64,000 nucleotides of DNA from a virus. A model generated the notes under the pieces. That model saw nothing but the letters and a program-made list of their open reading frames with translations, had not been told where the DNA came from and did no database searches. This document shows positions 52,128-64,000 of this stretch, piece after piece. Location of the stretch: positions 93,734 through 157,733 of IMG/VR virus record IMGVR_UViG_3300025141_000029. The stretch is one strand, 5' to 3'. Position 1 is the first letter of the stretch, and each line of letters opens with the position of its first letter. The translations under genes were made by a program, and so were the position numbers.

Positions 52128-52868
52128 ATGGTGAACTTACTAAAGAAAGCATTTTTATTCTTTTTTATTCTAACTTTAACTAGTTGCGCGCACTCAAATT
52201 TTCAATCATTTGATACTACAGAGATGCTACTCAAGCAAGCAAAAAAATCATTTGTAAAAATTGAAGTTGAAGTGTGGAGCGTCGAATGTATAACGTTAGA
52301 AGATAAGCAAAAAGAATGTATAAAAGAGAAAATAGGAGGAGCATGGGGATCTGGCTCTATTATCAATTACAAGGGCAAGAAACACATATTAACTGTTGCT
52401 CACGTATGTGAAAGTGAAAGAATAAATATGATGGCTTCAATGACCGGTCAAGAAGTTCATTATGATTTTCTAGCAACTGTTGAGGCCAATGATTGGCAAT
52501 CATATGGTGCCAAGCCAATTAAGATCGATCATCAAAATGATATATGTGTGATGTCAGTCGTCGATATTGATGCGCCATATTTAAAAATCTCCAACAAAAG
52601 ACCTTCCTACGGAGAAAAAATCTACACTGTCGCGTCGCCAGGGGGTTTAGCTAAAAATGGAATGGTACCGAACTTCGAAGGCAGATTTCTAGGTATTCAT
52701 GATGGAAGGGCTTTTTATAGTGTACCAGCGATGGGCGGATCAAGCGGTTCTCCATTGATTAACGGAAGAGGTGAAGTTGTAGGTATCACCCATTCGGTAT
52801 ACGCATATTTTCATCACGTAACGGTTTCTACTACTTTTGAAGAATTATGGAAATTTATCGCTAATTAA
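52128..52868 (+). CDS. trypsin-like serine protease, predicted lipoprotein
   Basis: 246 residues. A positively charged start, a hydrophobic stretch and the lipobox LTSC (C20) predict export and lipid anchoring. The catalytic triad is visible: 'LTVAHVC' (H92), 'QNDICVM' (D138) and 'GGSSGSPL' (S206). It is the only rightward gene in the 1-60058 region, divergent from phoH by 30 bases and ending ten bases from a convergent small gene. A role in host envelope modification, superinfection exclusion or lysis is inferred. Confidence 0.8.
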   Translation: MVNLLKKAFLFFFILTLTSCAHSNFQSFDTTEMLLKQAKKSFVKIEVEVWSVECITLEDKQKECIKEKIGGAWGSGSIINYKGKKHILTVAHVCESERINMMASMTGQEVHYDFLATVEANDWQSYGAKPIKIDHQNDICVMSVVDIDAPYLKISNKRPSYGEKIYTVASPGGLAKNGMVPNFEGRFLGIHDGRAFYSVPAMGGSSGSPLINGRGEVVGITHSVYAYFHHVTVSTTFEELWKFIAN

Positions 52869-57077: not shown

Positions 57078-58580
57078 TTATTTAGTCCATTTTTTAGTAA
57101 GCATCTCAAAAAGCACTTGATCTTTCTTCGAAGTGAAAGTTTCTTCTAATTCTATGACTCGTTTTTCATACATTTCACCGCTAGGAGGAGTTCCTTCTCC
57201 AAAGCCGGCTTCTTCAAGTGCCTTCTTCTTTATCTTTCTCTTTTTGTCGCGTTTGGCAGTAAACGCGCCTGGCGATGTCGATGCTGCGGAGGAAGGAGCG
57301 TTGCTCTTCGGCGTGACCGATTGATCTGTGCGTATAGCTGCGTCTGTACTTCCCGGCGTTCCGTACGGGTCGAATGAAGAGTCAGTACGCATCGATGGGG
57401 TATCCGACACTCGTTTGAAGTCCACCTCTGTCCCTTTTGGCGCTGGGGTAAGTCCGACTTCTTCAAGCTCTTTCTTCTTTATCTTTCTCTTTATCTTGTC
57501 ACGCTTTCCGCCGGGATGAGGGCCCGGGCCAGCCGGCCCAGATGGGGGGTTTTCACGGGGCGCGGGACGGCCCGGGGCGTGCGTGATGGCGCCCGGCCCG
57601 GGAGCGCCGACCTCAGCAAGCGTACCAGCATCATCTTCTTCATCTTCACGAAGCTTCTTGTTGCGTTTGCCTGGTATCCAAGGTTTATCAGTATCACCAC
57701 CCCTGGTGTCTGCAGGTTTGTTCTCTTCTATCACTCTTTTAATAGTGCTAGATAAAACTGTTTTAATTTGTTCGCTGGTTAATTTTTTCATTTTTTTACT
57801 CTCCGTTAAATTTTGATAATTTTGTTTTAATGAATCTTCGAAGTCTCTAACTAAAAAACCATTTCCTAATAAATAGGCTTCTCCTTCCATTCGTCTCAAA
57901 TGTGGATCTTTTTGTGCATATCCAGGTTTTAATGCTCCCATATGCTGAAAATCTCCTCGACAATTTTGAGAATGATGAACAAGCTCATGAGATAATGATC
58001 TTAACATATCTTTAGGGTGTCTGTTATCTACAAATATAGTAATTTCCATTACTTCTGGATTATAATAAGCAGTTCTGCCCCAAGGATCTTTAGCATTTTT
58101 AGGATCTGAGATTAAAATAACTTTTGCATCTTCTTTAAAACCTAATTTTTCTTTGACATATGGATAGAAACGTGATACAATATTTTCTAATTGACTTAAG
58201 TCTTTAGTAGAATTATTAGTAATATCGCATTGTTCTTCTATGGCATATTTAGTTCTACCAGTACCAACAGGTATATCTGCTCCTCTTGCCGGCTGGCGCC
58301 GGTATTGAGATAATTCATCTGCAACTCTTTTTTTATTACGTCTTAAATTATCTTTACGAAGTTCAGCAGTTCTTAGGGCACGTTCAAGTTTTGTTTTTTC
58401 ACTTCGAGTTATGGTTCGGTCTCTTAATTTAGCTTTTAAATTATTGATTATTTTATCTACTTTAGTTAATTTAATAACATATGGTTCAGTGCCTCCTTCT
58501 AATTCATCTTCCGCACTAACACTTTCCCATCTTTCATCTAAAAGTTTTTCTATTAATTTATATTTTTCTTTTATATTCAT
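57078..58580 (-). CDS. zinc-metallopeptidase-like protein with Pro/Gly-rich tail (500 aa)
   Basis: A helical N-terminal 110 residues precede a gluzincin-type core: 'SLSHELVHHSQNCRG' with H198, E199 and H202, and 'RRMEGEAYLLGN' (about 229-240) providing the likely third ligand Glu. After about residue 290 the protein becomes low-complexity: Pro/Gly-rich, then Ser/Thr-rich, with two copies of a 'KRDKxKRKIKKKxLEE'-type basic block. The tail region has locally very high GC. Peptidase function fits the motif; the target is unknown. It precedes the 999-aa gene by eleven bases. Confidence 0.65.
   Translation of the reverse strand: MNIKEKYKLIEKLLDERWESVSAEDELEGGTEPYVIKLTKVDKIINNLKAKLRDRTITRSEKTKLERALRTAELRKDNLRRNKKRVADELSQYRRQPARGADIPVGTGRTKYAIEEQCDITNNSTKDLSQLENIVSRFYPYVKEKLGFKEDAKVILISDPKNAKDPWGRTAYYNPEVMEITIFVDNRHPKDMLRSLSHELVHHSQNCRGDFQHMGALKPGYAQKDPHLRRMEGEAYLLGNGFLVRDFEDSLKQNYQNLTESKKMKKLTSEQIKTVLSSTIKRVIEENKPADTRGGDTDKPWIPGKRNKKLREDEEDDAGTLAEVGAPGPGAITHAPGRPAPRENPPSGPAGPGPHPGGKRDKIKRKIKKKELEEVGLTPAPKGTEVDFKRVSDTPSMRTDSSFDPYGTPGSTDAAIRTDQSVTPKSNAPSSAASTSPGAFTAKRDKKRKIKKKALEEAGFGEGTPPSGEMYEKRVIELEETFTSKKDQVLFEMLTKKWTK
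57207..57251 (-). repeat. direct repeat, copy 1, coding a basic KKKxLEE block
   Basis: About 45 bases within the peptidase-like gene, closely matching 57456-57503. Both copies encode a KRDK...KIKKKxLEE element followed by G-rich linker. The repeat suggests in-frame duplication of a linker-helix module. Confidence 0.55.
57456..57503 (-). repeat. direct repeat, copy 2, coding a basic KKKxLEE block
   Basis: Second copy of the element at 57207-57251, about 250 bases away, with a small insertion (an extra Ile/Lys codon). Flanked on one side by a strongly GC-rich patch at about 57511-57610. Confidence 0.55.
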
Positions 58581-59566
58581 TAACTTCCTCCAAAACCGGC
58601 CGGTGCGGATTTAGATCTTTTATAACTAGGTTTCTTACTAAAAGGGGAAACATTTTTTTGCCCCCCAAAACCAATTAAAAATTTCTTTTTAATACTATGT
58701 TTTTGCTTTAATCTTCTTTGGAAGTTGGCCTCCTCGACAATCGGATCAAATCTTTTGCGTACATCGTCTTCTAAATTATCGATCATTATTTTAAGTGAAC
58801 CTCGTACATCTTTATGTAAAGACATAATTCGATCATATGATTCATTAATTAATTTATAAAGTAATTTCAGATAACCAGTTCGTCGCAACATCTTGAATGT
58901 TAAATTTTCTGGTGAATATATGCCATCTTCTTTTAAGCCTAGATTTCTCATATTTTTAATTTTTTCTTTAAGGTTTTTTGCTGCGTCTAAGCTTTTAGGA
59001 TATTCTTTCAATTCAAATAGATCAAAAACTCTTTCGATCCGATCGATTAATTGATTGGTTTTTTTCGAAGTTGTCTCAAGATCAACTTCGAAATCAGCTC
59101 TGATTGGCTTTTTAAGCCATTTATTATTTTTTACAGAATATACACTATCAGATATATGTGGTTCTTTTTCATTTTGTACATAAATCTCTACTTCATGATC
59201 ATTCATTTTAATATTGTGTTTGTTGTTCCAGATAAAAATTTTGCCTCCGAAAAATTCTTTGACTAACTCTTCATTTTCATCCACATCTAAAAAATCTAAC
59301 AATATATGAAGATCAATATCAGAATATTTTGACCAATTATAGCCAGATAATGATCCAGTAATAATAACATCTTTGAGCTTTACTGATTTTAACAAATCTA
59401 ATGATTGAAAAAAATCATCGGCAATTTGAAGTAATTTTTGACGAACCGATTTATTAAGCACCATCTTGTGATTCCAAAATGCTGGTTGCAACTTTTCTTT
59501 TGGCACTAGAGATTCGATATCTAAGTCGGCTTCTTTTTTAAATTCTTCCCAAAGTGTTTTAATCAT
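58580..59566 (-). CDS. Pol-beta-type (MNT) nucleotidyltransferase (328 aa)
   Basis: 'ITGSLSGYNWSKYSDIDLHILLDF' (about 70-93) is the nucleotidyltransferase signature GSxxxxxxxxSDxDL, with two catalytic Asp. 'HEVEIYVQNE' supplies the third acid. The C-terminal half is helical with a Lys/Arg-rich end ('SYKRSKSAPAGFGGS' region). Proteins of this type transfer nucleotides to other molecules, such as in toxin-antitoxin MNT/HEPN pairs or kanamycin transferase. No HEPN partner is visible. TAATG overlap couples it to the peptidase-like gene. Confidence 0.75.
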   Translation of the reverse strand: MIKTLWEEFKKEADLDIESLVPKEKLQPAFWNHKMVLNKSVRQKLLQIADDFFQSLDLLKSVKLKDVIITGSLSGYNWSKYSDIDLHILLDFLDVDENEELVKEFFGGKIFIWNNKHNIKMNDHEVEIYVQNEKEPHISDSVYSVKNNKWLKKPIRADFEVDLETTSKKTNQLIDRIERVFDLFELKEYPKSLDAAKNLKEKIKNMRNLGLKEDGIYSPENLTFKMLRRTGYLKLLYKLINESYDRIMSLHKDVRGSLKIMIDNLEDDVRKRFDPIVEEANFQRRLKQKHSIKKKFLIGFGGQKNVSPFSKKPSYKRSKSAPAGFGGS

Positions 59567-59814
59567 CTTAGGTTATCCAGTTTTCCTTCTAGGCGGCCAA
59601 TAATACGCAATATTTCAGTATTATTATCTTTTATTTTATCGATATCTACTCGAATTAATTCAATTTCATGTTCTACTCGTTCCACTCGATCATCACCTAC
59701 ATTTTGAATCCAGAAAATAATTCCCGCGACTGTAGTAACTATAGCGACTCCCAATAAAATATAATCTCGAACTATACCAATACCCGATGATGTTACTGTG
59801 GTTTCACTGCTCAT
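59563..59814 (-). CDS. small membrane protein with coiled coil (83 aa)
   Basis: One transmembrane helix at about residues 17-36 ('YILLGVAIVTTVAGIIFWI') precedes a heptad coiled coil to the end ('HEIELIRVDIDKIKDNNTEIL'). This layout (short outside, TM, coiled coil) is common to phage inner-membrane spanin- or holin-associated proteins. The role here is unproven. Overlaps the next gene upstream by 11 bases. Confidence 0.55.
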   Translation of the reverse strand: MSSETTVTSSGIGIVRDYILLGVAIVTTVAGIIFWIQNVGDDRVERVEHEIELIRVDIDKIKDNNTEILRIIGRLEGKLDNLR

Positions 59815-60058
59815 TTTTTATTCCTTTTTTTATTCTTTCTTCTAGGCGTTTTAGACGCTTGATAATTCTTCTTTGTTCAACGTTTATACTCGGATGCTTT
59901 TTGTCGATAATTATGATTTTTTCTTTTTTAGAATCTTCTGTTTTTGTTATTGCCAATGCTGTAAATGCTAACACAGAGCTAATAAAGAAAAATATTGACA
60001 AGGCAAAGAGAAAATAACAAACCTTGCCGCGGCGGTTATTACAAATATTTTCTACCAC
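59804..60058 (-). CDS. small membrane protein (84 aa)
   Basis: Residues 14-36 are a strong transmembrane helix ('YFLFALSIFFFISSVLAFTA') after a basic, Cys-containing N-terminus. A Lys/Arg-rich helical tail (about 45-84) follows. It is co-transcribed and overlapping with the 83-aa TM/coiled-coil gene. The pair resembles a two-component membrane unit (holin/spanin-like), but no lysis function is proven. It is the first gene of the leftward 52879-60058 block. Confidence 0.55.
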   Translation of the reverse strand: MVENICNNRRGKVCYFLFALSIFFFISSVLAFTALAITKTEDSKKEKIIIIDKKHPSINVEQRRIIKRLKRLEERIKKGIKNEQ

Positions 60059-60079: not shown

Positions 60080-60108
60080 TTGACTTGAAAAAATTTATTA
60101 CATATAAT
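60080..60108 (+). promoter_or_regulatory. consensus sigma-70-type promoter for the rightward genes
   Basis: TTGACT at 60080-60085, 17 bases, then TATAAT at 60103-60108. This is a nearly ideal host sigma-70 promoter inside the 108-base divergent gap. Transcription would start near 60115 and run into the MopE/VWA gene. Its strength suggests early expression of the rightward genes, in contrast to the late-type box at phoH. Confidence 0.65.
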
Positions 60109-60146: not shown

Positions 60147-60167
60147 ATGGCCTTTAAGTATTATTAA
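60147..60167 (+). other. possible six-residue leader peptide overlapping the VWA gene start
   Basis: ATG at 60147 opens a 6-codon frame (MAFKYY) whose TAA overlaps the ATG at 60167 (TAATG). The only good purine run, AGAGG, lies just before 60147. Reinitiation could deliver ribosomes to the VWA gene, whose own Shine-Dalgarno is poor. This could also be chance. Confidence 0.25.
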
Positions 60168-62110
60168 TGAAATTTGCAAATATTGATGTAAAAATCCGAA
60201 TTCTAGCCTGGTCAATCACGTTAGTTTTAGTATCTCTTTTATCTTTCTGTGCTGAGGCTCAAAACTCTGATACCGGCAATATTAACAATATATCTGATGT
60301 AGATGAAAACGAAGAAAAAGATACTCTAGAGGAACCAGATATTATAATTATTCCATGGGAAGAAGAAGATGTCATCCCAGAGCCGGAATGTTTAGAATGC
60401 AAATGGTACTTTTGTCCTCCGCTCGATGAAATTTGGAAAAAAGAAATATGTATGAATATTTGTGATGATCCTCCAACACTTTACTCTGAGTCTGAATGTA
60501 TACAATATATGGAATGTGATCCAACACAATATCTTCTTGATGAGATCGATTGTATAACTGATGATGGTTATCCCGGTATACAACAAAAAGTTTGCAATAA
60601 AGGAATGATACAATATACAGATTGTGTTACAAACTGCGAAGAAGAATTATGTAATTATGAAGATGACGATTGCGACGGAGAAATTGATGAAGGACAACTC
60701 AACGACTGCGACGAATGTGGAATCATACCATATGAAGAGTGTAATAATTTTGATGACGACTGTGATGGAGACACAGATGAAGATTTGATTCAGCCTTGCG
60801 CTACAGCATGTGGAGCTGGATATGAAATGTGTTATAATGGAAATTGGATATCTTGTACTGCTCCTCTAGAAAATGATGAAATATGCGATGGCCTTGATAA
60901 TGATTGTGATGGCCAGATTGATGAAGGCTTAGATTGTGTTTGTACAATACAAGACGTTGGTGTGTTATTTCCATGTCAAGATGATCCTTTATTATGTGGA
61001 CAAGGCTATAAAACTTGTGAATGTGTAGATCCGGATTGTAAAAATCTCTTAATGACTGATTGTTACGCTCTATGTTATTGGATTCCGTCAGGAAATCCAA
61101 ATGAAATTTGTGATCCACTTACTGGAATGATATTAAGTCAAGAAAAATGTAATAATTTTGACGATGATTGTGATCAGGAAATTGATGAAGATCTCTATGC
61201 ACCTTGTTATACCGGTCCAGAAGGTACGATTATGGTTGGTATATGTATTCCAGGCGAAATGACTTGTGACGCTGGTACTTGGGGAAATTATAATGAAGCT
61301 GAAAGTTTTATTCCATATTATTGTAAAGATGAGATAGTACCTCAAGAAGAAATTTGTAATGGATTGGATGATGATTGTGATGGAATCGCTGATTGGGGCG
61401 ACGAAATGAAAGACACAGATGTTTTATTCATCGTCGATTGGTCTGGATCGATGATTGATGAAATGGGTGCAGTAATGATAGCATTAAATCAATTCGCACA
61501 AAATTTCAGCGATGAAGATGTTATTAAGTGGGCATTTATACGCGGACCGGTCGCCGTACTACCTTCAACTTCTAATGAGCGCTTAGAATTACAGCAAGAT
61601 TTAATTGGATTTTCAGATTTTCTGACTTCTTTGGCCGGAATAGATACGAATCCTCAATCGATGAGCACTGCTTTCGAAATGCTTTTAGATGCGATTTACA
61701 TATCAGTTCATAATATTACAGCAACGCTTTCGCAACCAATTTCCAATTTTCAGTGGATTGGTGAAGCTGGAATGTCCCCACATGTAATAGAATCAGAACC
61801 TCCATTACAAAATTTCAATATAAGTTGGCGTCCCGGGGCAGACCGAATAATCATCGTTTTTAGCGACGAACACCCCCAAAGCTACCTGGTACCTAAACTT
61901 GACATAGAAGACGTTAAAATGGCCGTCTCTGGCGTGCCTCAGCTTAAATTATATACATTTTCTCGACCCGGCTCTGATCAAAACAAGTGGGAACAAATAG
62001 CGAACGCTGGAAATGGAAACTGGTATAAGCTTACAAATAATCCTACTGAAATGTATGCTAGTTTAATGGAGATACTTGATGAGATTTGTAAAGGCGGGTC
62101 AAATGAATGA
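60167..62110 (+). CDS. secreted MopE-repeat and VWA-domain protein (647 aa)
   Basis: Signal peptide: a hydrophobic core at about residues 11-28 and a signal-peptidase I site AEA after residue 31. Residues about 40-160 are Cys-rich. Residues about 160-415 contain five repeats of the MopE-type metal-binding pattern (e.g. 'CNNFDDDCDGDTDEDL', 'CDGLDNDCDGQIDEGL'), each dense in Asp and Cys. A VWA domain from about 415 to 645 has the MIDAS site 'VDWSGSM' (D424, S426, S428). MopE repeats bind copper or calcium and are typical of Myxococcota-like bacteria. A phage-made surface or secreted protein is unusual. Confidence 0.85.
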   Translation: MKFANIDVKIRILAWSITLVLVSLLSFCAEAQNSDTGNINNISDVDENEEKDTLEEPDIIIIPWEEEDVIPEPECLECKWYFCPPLDEIWKKEICMNICDDPPTLYSESECIQYMECDPTQYLLDEIDCITDDGYPGIQQKVCNKGMIQYTDCVTNCEEELCNYEDDDCDGEIDEGQLNDCDECGIIPYEECNNFDDDCDGDTDEDLIQPCATACGAGYEMCYNGNWISCTAPLENDEICDGLDNDCDGQIDEGLDCVCTIQDVGVLFPCQDDPLLCGQGYKTCECVDPDCKNLLMTDCYALCYWIPSGNPNEICDPLTGMILSQEKCNNFDDDCDQEIDEDLYAPCYTGPEGTIMVGICIPGEMTCDAGTWGNYNEAESFIPYYCKDEIVPQEEICNGLDDDCDGIADWGDEMKDTDVLFIVDWSGSMIDEMGAVMIALNQFAQNFSDEDVIKWAFIRGPVAVLPSTSNERLELQQDLIGFSDFLTSLAGIDTNPQSMSTAFEMLLDAIYISVHNITATLSQPISNFQWIGEAGMSPHVIESEPPLQNFNISWRPGADRIIIVFSDEHPQSYLVPKLDIEDVKMAVSGVPQLKLYTFSRPGSDQNKWEQIANAGNGNWYKLTNNPTEMYASLMEILDEICKGGSNE

Positions 62111-62718
62111 TGAAGAAAATAACAATTTTTATCATCATGCTTTTATTTGCTGTTACGTGTAGTAATCACAATTCAACTATTTTTCTCAATAACAAGCACA
62201 AATTTATATATAAAAGACAACAATGTGATCCACAAAAACCTTTCCCACAAATGATATTGATTCCTTATTTTGAAAAAGCTACTCAAATAATACCAAATTG
62301 TAAAACATATCCAGTACATCAAACAACATTTGCTTTATTTATTTTTTATCACCAATGGTTAGAAAACTTTGAAGATAATAATATGGCAGTCAGAGGAATG
62401 CTAGAAAAAGTCATGATTGAGTGGGGAACAGAAAAACGTGTTAGTATTGGCGGCTATGATTTAAAAGGAATTCCGGCTGAAAATCAAAATATCCTAGGTA
62501 TTGTAGAGTCTGAAAATATGATTTGGGTTTGGGAAGGTTATAATCATAATATATCTGAAAGTGCTTTATTTCATGAATTAGTACATCTGGCAATTAGAGC
62601 GAAATATGGCGAGCATGGGGATCCGGATCATGAAGGATCTAAATATAGAGGATGGACGGCGGCACATACTAGAATGATTATTGAAACCAAACAAATGTTA
62701 CAAGCATTTGAATTATAA
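62107..62718 (+). CDS. secreted HExxH protein, possible lipoprotein (203 aa)
   Basis: The N-terminus 'MMKKITIFIIMLLFAVTCSNHN' is reduced here to its features: basic, hydrophobic, then Cys18, a near but not classic lipobox (AVTC). The zinc motif is 'FHELVHLAIRA' (H156, E157, H160), with H175 in 'GDPDHEG' as a probable third ligand. Residues Cys40 and Cys65 could form a disulfide. It is translationally coupled to the VWA gene by ATGA, so the two probably act together outside the cytoplasm. Confidence 0.7.
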   Translation: MMKKITIFIIMLLFAVTCSNHNSTIFLNNKHKFIYKRQQCDPQKPFPQMILIPYFEKATQIIPNCKTYPVHQTTFALFIFYHQWLENFEDNNMAVRGMLEKVMIEWGTEKRVSIGGYDLKGIPAENQNILGIVESENMIWVWEGYNHNISESALFHELVHLAIRAKYGEHGDPDHEGSKYRGWTAAHTRMIIETKQMLQAFEL

Positions 62719-62736
62719 AAAACTATTTATTTTATT

Positions 62737-64000
62737 ATGAAAAACTTTATTAAGTTATTCGAAAATTATCGTCGCTTCTTAAACGAAGAACAGCTTCTTG
62801 TTGAAGCTCGCGAAACGGATGCCCTCAAAAGGGTTGTCAAAGGAGTCAAGAGCGAAGAAGTAAATGAATTTTTAACTTCCTATATGGATCATCTTTTTGG
62901 TTATGATCCTTCTGGCAATCAAAAATATGCACTTTGGATTGCCAAAATGTTGAATAATTCAGCCCATCGAATGATTCACAGCGTTGAAAAGGAACGTTTC
63001 GCGGTGGCAGATTATCTTGACTCCATCAAAGCCGGAGTTGGTTCAGACATTCAAACTATTCAACGAAACTTGGCCAATTATCATAAAATGGCTCAAAAGA
63101 ACTTGATTGAAAAAGATATTAATAAATTTGATGATATATCCGATTGGGCTCATGCTGTCTATAGGGCAATTGCCGAGAACGAAGAGAGACAACAGATGAA
63201 GGCAATGGAAAAAAAGGCCAAATCTGAATCTGATGTTATTTCCAGTGGTGATGATTATATGATTGTTCGTCCTCGATCAAAAGAAGGCTCTTGTTATTAT
63301 GGCCAAGGAACTCGCTGGTGTATCTCTGCCACAAAAAGCCAAAATTACTTTGATAGTTATACTGAAGAAGGCAAAGGCTTCTATTTTGTTTTCTTTCATC
63401 ACTTACAGCAAGATGATATAATGAAAAAGATGGCTTTGGTTTTTGAGCCCGGGTACGACGAACCCTCTGAGGTTTATGATCGTCCGGATGATGAAGTTGG
63501 AATCGACGGCTTAAGAGAAGCTGTCGAAGAGAATCTTTTGCTGAAAGGATTCTGGAATTCGTTGCCAGATAAAAAAGCAGTAAAGAAGATCTTCAATAAA
63601 AAACCAGAAGAATTAAAAAAGTTAGTAGCTAAACTTCAACACGAATTGGAAATATTTAGAGAAGGGGACGAGATAGGCGATAAAACTCTTAAATATAAAG
63701 ATGCGGATCTTGAAGTTCTCGCTACAGCTTTTAAAGCTTTGGGTATTGATATCGAAGATAACAATGATATAGAAGAAGAATTTGATGAGCTGATCAGCGA
63801 AGATCTTTGGGATATTATCGCGGCATCAGCTCGCCATTGGGATGAAAATCCTGCAGGACCAACTGAAGAAGAATATCAAGTAATAGAAGACGCAGTCGAT
63901 CTTAATCATTTTTATATCTCTCGCGAAGAAATGGATGAAGGTAGAATGTATTGGGATGCTGGAACAACATTTCAGTTTGATGATGTTGATGATCTTGTAG
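62737..64000 (+). CDS. possible capsid-cargo protein, C-terminus beyond window
   Basis: Open from ATG at 62737 to the window end (421 codons visible, no stop). The N-terminus 'MKNFIKLFENYRRFLNEE' has the look of T4-type capsid-targeting sequences (MK-aromatic-x-x-F, ending near a Glu cleavage site). Residues about 185-205 contain 'YYGQGTRWCISATKSQN', a Gly-x-Trp-Cys motif seen in diverse phage proteins of unknown role. The C-terminal part is acidic. It starts 18 bases after the secreted HExxH gene and has no signal peptide. Function unknown. Confidence 0.6.
   Translation, partial: MKNFIKLFENYRRFLNEEQLLVEARETDALKRVVKGVKSEEVNEFLTSYMDHLFGYDPSGNQKYALWIAKMLNNSAHRMIHSVEKERFAVADYLDSIKAGVGSDIQTIQRNLANYHKMAQKNLIEKDINKFDDISDWAHAVYRAIAENEERQQMKAMEKKAKSESDVISSGDDYMIVRPRSKEGSCYYGQGTRWCISATKSQNYFDSYTEEGKGFYFVFFHHLQQDDIMKKMALVFEPGYDEPSEVYDRPDDEVGIDGLREAVEENLLLKGFWNSLPDKKAVKKIFNKKPEELKKLVAKLQHELEIFREGDEIGDKTLKYKDADLEVLATAFKALGIDIEDNNDIEEEFDELISEDLWDIIAASARHWDENPAGPTEEEYQVIEDAVDLNHFYISREEMDEGRMYWDAGTTFQFDDVDDLV

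Follow-up and report, generated by a model that had tools for sequence, protein, structure and literature searches.

A predicted MopE-VWA lipoprotein and a partner HExxH protein encoded by a T4-like phage

Why would a T4-like phage encode a large exported protein built from MopE repeats and a VWA domain, and directly behind it a second exported protein with an HExxH signature? We analyzed a window of 64,000 nucleotides, the right end (positions 93734-157733) of a 157,733-base linear IMG/VR virus record (G000), in which these two proteins, here called P1 and P2, are encoded. The record belongs to a T4-like phage: its terminase shares 43% identity with the Flavobacterium phage immuto protein, and every one of the 2,683 phage records that it matched lies below 60%.

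The locus and its expression

P1 and P2 are genes 1 and 2 of a plus-strand group that is opposed to minus-strand genes. The P1 stop and the P2 start share an ATGA, a 4-bp overlap at 62107-62110.

60080-60108 (+): sigma70-type promoter, TTGACT-17-TATAAT, 11/12 match, 59 nt before the P1 ATG
60167-62110 (+): P1, predicted MopE-VWA exported lipoprotein, 647 amino acids, 231 related viral contigs
62107-62718 (+): P2, predicted exported HExxH lipoprotein with a SprT-like layout, 203 amino acids

The relatives come from a P1 profile search that found 231 related IMG/VR viral contigs. The best 80 of these, together with loci from earlier scans, gave 72 clusters at 95% identity; the loci are IMG/VR contigs, many of them fragments.

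The earlier note had placed the pair behind this promoter and proposed early expression. The promoter is present, and early or middle timing is plausible. Sites with a match of at least 11/12 number 16 in the 157.7-kb record against 5.9 expected. Other strong sites precede genes that we assigned by sequence to replication, recombination or chaperone functions, which suggests early or middle expression of P1 as well. Upstream of P1 in the relatives, no conserved promoter was found. In another branch, P1 has a ThyX-like/lytic-transglycosylase pair on one side and a run of genes that ends at a polymerase on the other, and it shares a 10-bp overlap with the next gene; this contact with nucleotide-metabolism and replication-type genes again fits early or middle timing (ORFs were called mechanically, and we named ThyX, polymerase and ssb by their sequence motifs). 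At 26.5-33.7 kb of our record the same block recurs without P1, and so P1 has moved within genomes.

Close to the P1 start, a six-codon frame (ATG...TAA, 60147-60167, +) ends in a stop that overlaps the P1 start codon (TAATG). The P1 ATG has its closest Shine-Dalgarno-like sequence, AGAGG, at a distance of 20 nt, and initiation coupled to the six-codon frame is possible. Divergent from P1, the minus strand at 59563-60058 encodes two small proteins, each with a single membrane helix, which in one of the two is followed by a coiled-coil-like stretch; these are possible lysis or spanin-type proteins. Further away lie a HELVHHSQ metallopeptidase-like protein (57078-58580, -), with relatives in 32/72 P1 loci, often two to four genes downstream (c2), and another exported lipoprotein-like protein (52128-52868, +) with a trypsin-like peptidase domain (PF13365, 53.9 bits), similar proteins to which occur near P1 in a few relatives (c32). 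A long minus-strand gene run at 28355-48983 resembles, by eye, sugar-nucleotide or surface-glycan metabolism (epimerases, an aminotransferase, glycosyltransferases).

Among 1498 ORFs, we also noticed two N-terminal tags on many unrelated proteins, one FENWRxxLxE-like (56 N-terminal, 2 internal) and one MKITKxxLxxIIxEE-like (37 versus 3). Tagged proteins are found at 62737 in the window, at 79631-80912 and 66219-66680 of the record, and in three further loci (L003 1040-6771, L004 7237-14171, L024 12325-13879). Both tags finish close to an LxE/IxE motif that resembles T4 prohead-protease sites, so that they may target packaged proteins to the capsid, which we offer as a lead only.

Domain architecture, family and partnership

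The two proteins divide into the following parts.

60167-60250 (+): P1 signal peptide (residues 1-27) and lipobox-position Cys28; helix 8-28 in the model, Cys28 invariant in a 19-row alignment
60251-60385 (+): P1 acidic, fast-evolving linker (residues 29-73)
60386-60646 (+): P1 Cys-rich N-terminal domain (residues 74-160; alignment A4)
60650-60688 (+): MopE repeat 1, CNYEDDDCDGEID
60740-60778 (+): MopE repeat 2, CNNFDDDCDGDTD
60884-60922 (+): MopE repeat 3, CDGLDNDCDGQID
61148-61186 (+): MopE repeat 4, CNNFDDDCDQEID
61205-61393 (+): longer module, CYTGPEGT...GIC...TC...WG...EICNGLDDDCDG, ending in MopE repeat 5 (61355-61393)
61412-62095 (+): P1 VWA domain; MIDAS DWSGS at 61436-61450, D567 at 61865-61867
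62158-62160 (+): P2 lipobox-position Cys18, invariant in alignment A6
62572-62631 (+): P2 zinc signature HELVH-x14-H (H156, E157, H160, H175)

At the P1 N-terminus, a hydrophobic leader (residues 1-27) precedes Cys28, a residue kept in all 19 aligned homologues. The strict lipobox pattern fits 44/72 P1 clusters; the copy in the window (LSFC) is atypical and falls outside it. Distant P2 homologues carry clear lipoboxes (LSGC, LSSC and LLSC). Because each of the two proteins has a signal peptide with a Cys where lipidation would take place, P1 and P2 are probably exported and most likely lipid-anchored in the same membrane. The linker that follows the P1 leader is the sole fast-evolving part of the protein, 39% identical to the nearest relative versus 82-86% for the other domains.

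The five MopE loops begin at residues 162, 192, 240, 328 and 397, and PF11617 scores the window P1 above its gathering score (28.5 bits, cutoff 27, E=1.9e-6; relatives 47-109 bits). The repeats are Asp-rich and read D-x-D-x-D-G, the pattern of Ca2+-binding loops, from which we infer that they bind Ca2+. In MopE itself, Ca2+ stabilized the protein during purification, and Cu(I) is bound via His132, His203 and kynurenine 130 (Trp130) (PMC3423442). The window P1 holds three histidines, all of them in the VWA domain, and none in residues 74-412, which excludes the MopE His/kynurenine copper site. We therefore rejected copper or metal uptake by a MopE-type site, and the metal-binding role offered by the earlier note is disfavored.

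The VWA domain carries an intact MIDAS, whose D424, S426 and S428 are invariant, together with the distal D567, in 71/71 P1 homologues. By profile, PF00092 scores the window P1 at 17.1 bits, below its gathering score of 23.8 (relatives 16.9-20.5). In the structural model, residues 417-638 form an alpha/beta domain (ten-residue mean pLDDT 60-92), and a Foldseek search with it against the PDB returned vWF A1/A3, integrin domains and the SpaC pilus adhesin (best E 1.7e-6, probability 1.00).

In P2, the HExxH and the distal His are invariant in 11 homologues, down to 24% identity, and H156, E157, H160, D174, H175 and E176 are kept even at 24-27%. The spacer from HExxH to the distal His is 14 residues in the window P2 and 13-14 in relatives. 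PF10263 falls below its cutoff (14.3 bits versus 25.6; best relative seen 18.5), the model is too poor to assign a fold (pLDDT 56), and a PDB search gave no match at E<=0.001. The conserved signature makes P2 a probable zinc peptidase. The five Asp/Cys-rich repeats, the MIDAS site and the co-translated HExxH protein, all named in the earlier note, are thus borne out; its term 'secreted' holds for export, and 'exported and probably lipid-anchored' describes both families better.

Members of the P1 family range from 608 to 790 amino acids. A tree of 71 has many well-supported deep branches, with SH-aLRT >=95 on 42/68 inner branches. Values of dN/dS (0.03-0.13 for P1, 0.09-0.23 for P2; rough, with several dS values near saturation) indicate strong purifying selection on both, and together with the 231 contigs they put the family well outside what chance would give. 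When diverse P1 members were compared by tblastn with 50,697 isolate phage records, no match was found. Neither P1 nor P2 matches a PADLOC family, and a search of the open-access literature for MopE in phages found nothing. Judged from these sequences, P1 is an old, widespread viral family with Myxococcota-like parts, and apparently an undescribed one. The family, with at least 231 viral contigs under strong purifying selection and no isolate-phage match, marks a large phage lineage for which we found no cultured member. One phage (L108, on the 267,118-base record G291) has two P1 copies about 50 kb apart.

How tightly is P2 tied to P1? P2 was present in the same locus in 14/72 sampled P1 clusters, in 13 of them on the same strand and at most two genes downstream, and in the fourteenth (L101) again no more than two genes away, on the opposite strand. 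P2 is missing from the neighborhood of most P1 loci. On the P1 tree, P2 presence requires seven changes versus 13.0 with shuffled labels. A wider P2 profile reached 28 viral loci, 19 of them on contigs with P1 or a P1-like VWA ORF. The nine loci lacking either are all on contigs shorter than 60 kb, and among P2-bearing contigs of at least 60 kb, 15/15 also carry P1 or a P1-like protein, the P1-like call in G298 and G305 being made from the VWA match alone. This upholds the coupling that the earlier note had proposed from a single locus. In some genomes (G295, G296 and others) P2 lies thousands of bases from P1. In a remote branch, a repeat-plus-VWA lipoprotein is found a few genes upstream of P2 (G299 and G303; L195, L199), and in G225:C1, of the same remote branch, the P1 and P2 genes overlap. 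The linkage is frequent, not absolute, and shared phage ancestry may explain part of the co-occurrence.

Candidate functions and origin

The architecture described above very probably represents a MIDAS-bearing arm anchored by lipid, accompanied in the same compartment by an optional zinc peptidase. We propose that P1 and P2 are envelope proteins that the phage would have made inside the infected cell, early to middle in infection, and that both would face the periplasm or the outside. P1 would form an arm in which a flexible acidic linker leads to a Cys-rich base, a rigid stalk of MopE loops stabilized by disulphides and Ca2+, and a VWA tip, whose MIDAS metal would grip a protein ligand. P2 would then cut the protein held by P1, or P1 itself. 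In this way the surface of the infected cell would be remodeled, and with its surface proteins bound and cleaved, further phages would fail to adsorb.

That superinfection exclusion is the purpose of the pair is our preferred reading, held tentatively and short of an even chance. There are precedents: the phage lipoproteins T5 Llp and Cor act in superinfection exclusion, and early expression of such proteins is seen in many phages (PMC9586334). The conserved leader Cys in both proteins, the invariant MIDAS, the invariant catalytic signature of P2, purifying selection and the P1-P2 pairing are all in line with it, as are the timing suggested by the sigma70-type promoter here and by the ThyX-like/lytic-transglycosylase/polymerase block elsewhere, and the likeness of the modeled VWA to ligand-binding vWF A and integrin domains. 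Against it stand the size of P1 beside the small Llp and Cor, the lack of a PADLOC match, the promoter's absence from relatives, and the sub-cutoff SprT-like score and poor model of P2. Moreover, since P2 is missing near most P1 loci, P1 does not need it for its role. It is also possible, though we hold this more loosely still, that the two proteins represent an undescribed envelope-remodeling class, a large lipoprotein arm gripping through its metal-dependent VWA, with an optional lipid-anchored zinc peptidase, by which an uncultured T4-like lineage seals or alters the infected-cell surface.

An alternative that we consider unlikely is a lysis or envelope-disruption module, in which P2 cleaves the outer-membrane or wall-linked proteins to which P1 has bound, helping endolysin and spanins to breach the envelope. 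In 9 sampled clusters, the first or second gene upstream of P1 encodes an exported SLT-type lytic transglycosylase; in L003 the second gene upstream encodes an Amidase_2 endolysin, and in the window small membrane and coiled-coil proteins flank P1. However, most P1 loci have no lysis neighbor, the promoter is of an early type, and in our record both the SLT-like gene (in the ThyX/polymerase block) and the endolysin-like gene (elsewhere) are far from P1.

Somewhat less likely again is that P1 acts as an adhesin, with which the infected cell or its debris sticks to particles, neighbors or matrix, altering where the cell ends up or the way in which progeny encounter new hosts. A VWA domain on an Asp-rich repeat stalk is indeed adhesin-like, and SpaC is among the PDB matches. 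Yet in a short lytic cycle such stickiness would cost the phage without obvious return, and it leaves P2 unexplained.

The earlier note had favored gene capture from a Myxococcota-like or methanotrophic host, for binding metal or prey. As a recent event, we regard this as very improbable. What stands is the likeness of the parts: the MopE repeats and the longer CYTGP module also occur in Myxococcota proteins, and this module (CYTGPEGT) is the part of P1 most like them, with about positions 394-482 of a viral homologue query 46-59% identical to proteins from Myxococcota-type genomes. Myxococcota also have VWA lipoproteins, one of which (L154) bears a C-terminal MopE repeat. We compared bacteria by profiles on Myxococcota genomes and by a coarse pattern scan that took in other phyla. 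The profile of the P1 N-terminal domain found nothing in 284 Myxococcota genomes (0/284) and matched 6/6 virus records outside the alignment. The VWA profile likewise found nothing in the 284 genomes at E<=1e-6; at E<=0.001 it gave weak matches in 55/189 genomes of a single phylum, mainly over its first 30-100 positions (best 30.7 bits). The pattern scan of genome contigs returned 13 loci, all titled Myxococcota or 'deltaproteobacterial' MAGs, in which mainly the repeat region matched; in nine of those MAG genomes, the best matches again lay over repeats. In the bacterial proteins that we inspected, repeats occur without a VWA, except in L060, where a VWA-like region precedes them. L055-L058, four proteins of Myxococcota type and of a length close to that of P1, were rejected as full P1 homologues for want of a VWA. 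With the N-terminal domain absent from these genomes, the VWA matches weak and partial, the viral family diverse and deep-branched and the copper site unable to form, we dropped a recent bacterial donor. On this evidence P1 is probably not a recent capture, largely the outcome by which the earlier note would count its own proposal refuted, and Myxococcota would have in common with it only the repeat modules and generic VWA lipoproteins.

Least likely of all is that P1 is a virion component that binds the host at adsorption, a reading that draws on VWA domains being ligand binders and on the many uncharacterized structural-type genes of the phage, and that is opposed by a signal peptide and lipobox routing P1 out of the cytoplasm, the site of T4-like virion assembly, and by non-structural P1 neighborhoods.

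The earlier note also suggested that P1 might define the host group, which it does not. GroEL proved uninformative: its identity is 46-48% with the best copies from plasmids and Myxococcota and 44% with those from phages, much the same distance from every source. A 34,863-base phage-like contig with a P1-P2 pair (G225:C1; L211, L212) sits inside a Myxococcota MAG. Because its composition is unlike the rest of that MAG (GC 0.457 versus about 0.67; tetranucleotide correlation 0.10 versus 0.90-0.96), it is probably misbinned, and we rejected it as a host link. The phage encodes a tmRNA (L009 937-1246, minus strand; record 80937-81246; Rfam 116.9 bits, gathering 47) with the tag ANDNVDFEYALAA. Among the Myxococcota tags compared with it, several read ANDNVE[LFY]ALAA; as a pointer to the host, this is suggestive only.

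Relation to known systems

Parts of the pair resemble several known proteins. Like MopE of Methylococcus capsulatus and the other PF11617 'Cu-binding_MopE' proteins, P1 has the Asp/Cys repeat and signs of export; unlike them, it has a VWA domain and a lipid-anchor signal, and no His/kynurenine copper site. Myxococcota lipoproteins (such as L154 and L059) share with P1 a lipoprotein leader, MopE modules and sometimes a VWA with a MopE repeat, but the P1 N-terminal domain was not found in the 284 genomes, and their VWA is differently ordered or absent. With the SprT-like zinc peptidases (PF10263; SPRTN and SprT), P2 shares the HExxH-x14-H spacing and, in several members, an alignable core. P2 stays below the Pfam cutoff and, unlike SPRTN and SprT, which act inside the cell, is a predicted exported lipoprotein.

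The closest functional parallels to the preferred reading, superinfection exclusion, are Llp of T5 and Cor of T1-like phages, which are phage-encoded lipoproteins of the host envelope, as predicted for P1 and P2; Llp is expressed early (PMC9586334). Both are small and have no VWA, repeats or partner peptidase, whereas P1 spans 608-790 amino acids. A large MIDAS-bearing lipoprotein with a partner peptidase would be a form of virus-host contact for which we found no description in phages. Should the pair block or trim receptors, the ligand of its VWA would point to the host, and superinfection exclusion would extend well beyond the small Llp and Cor lipoproteins.
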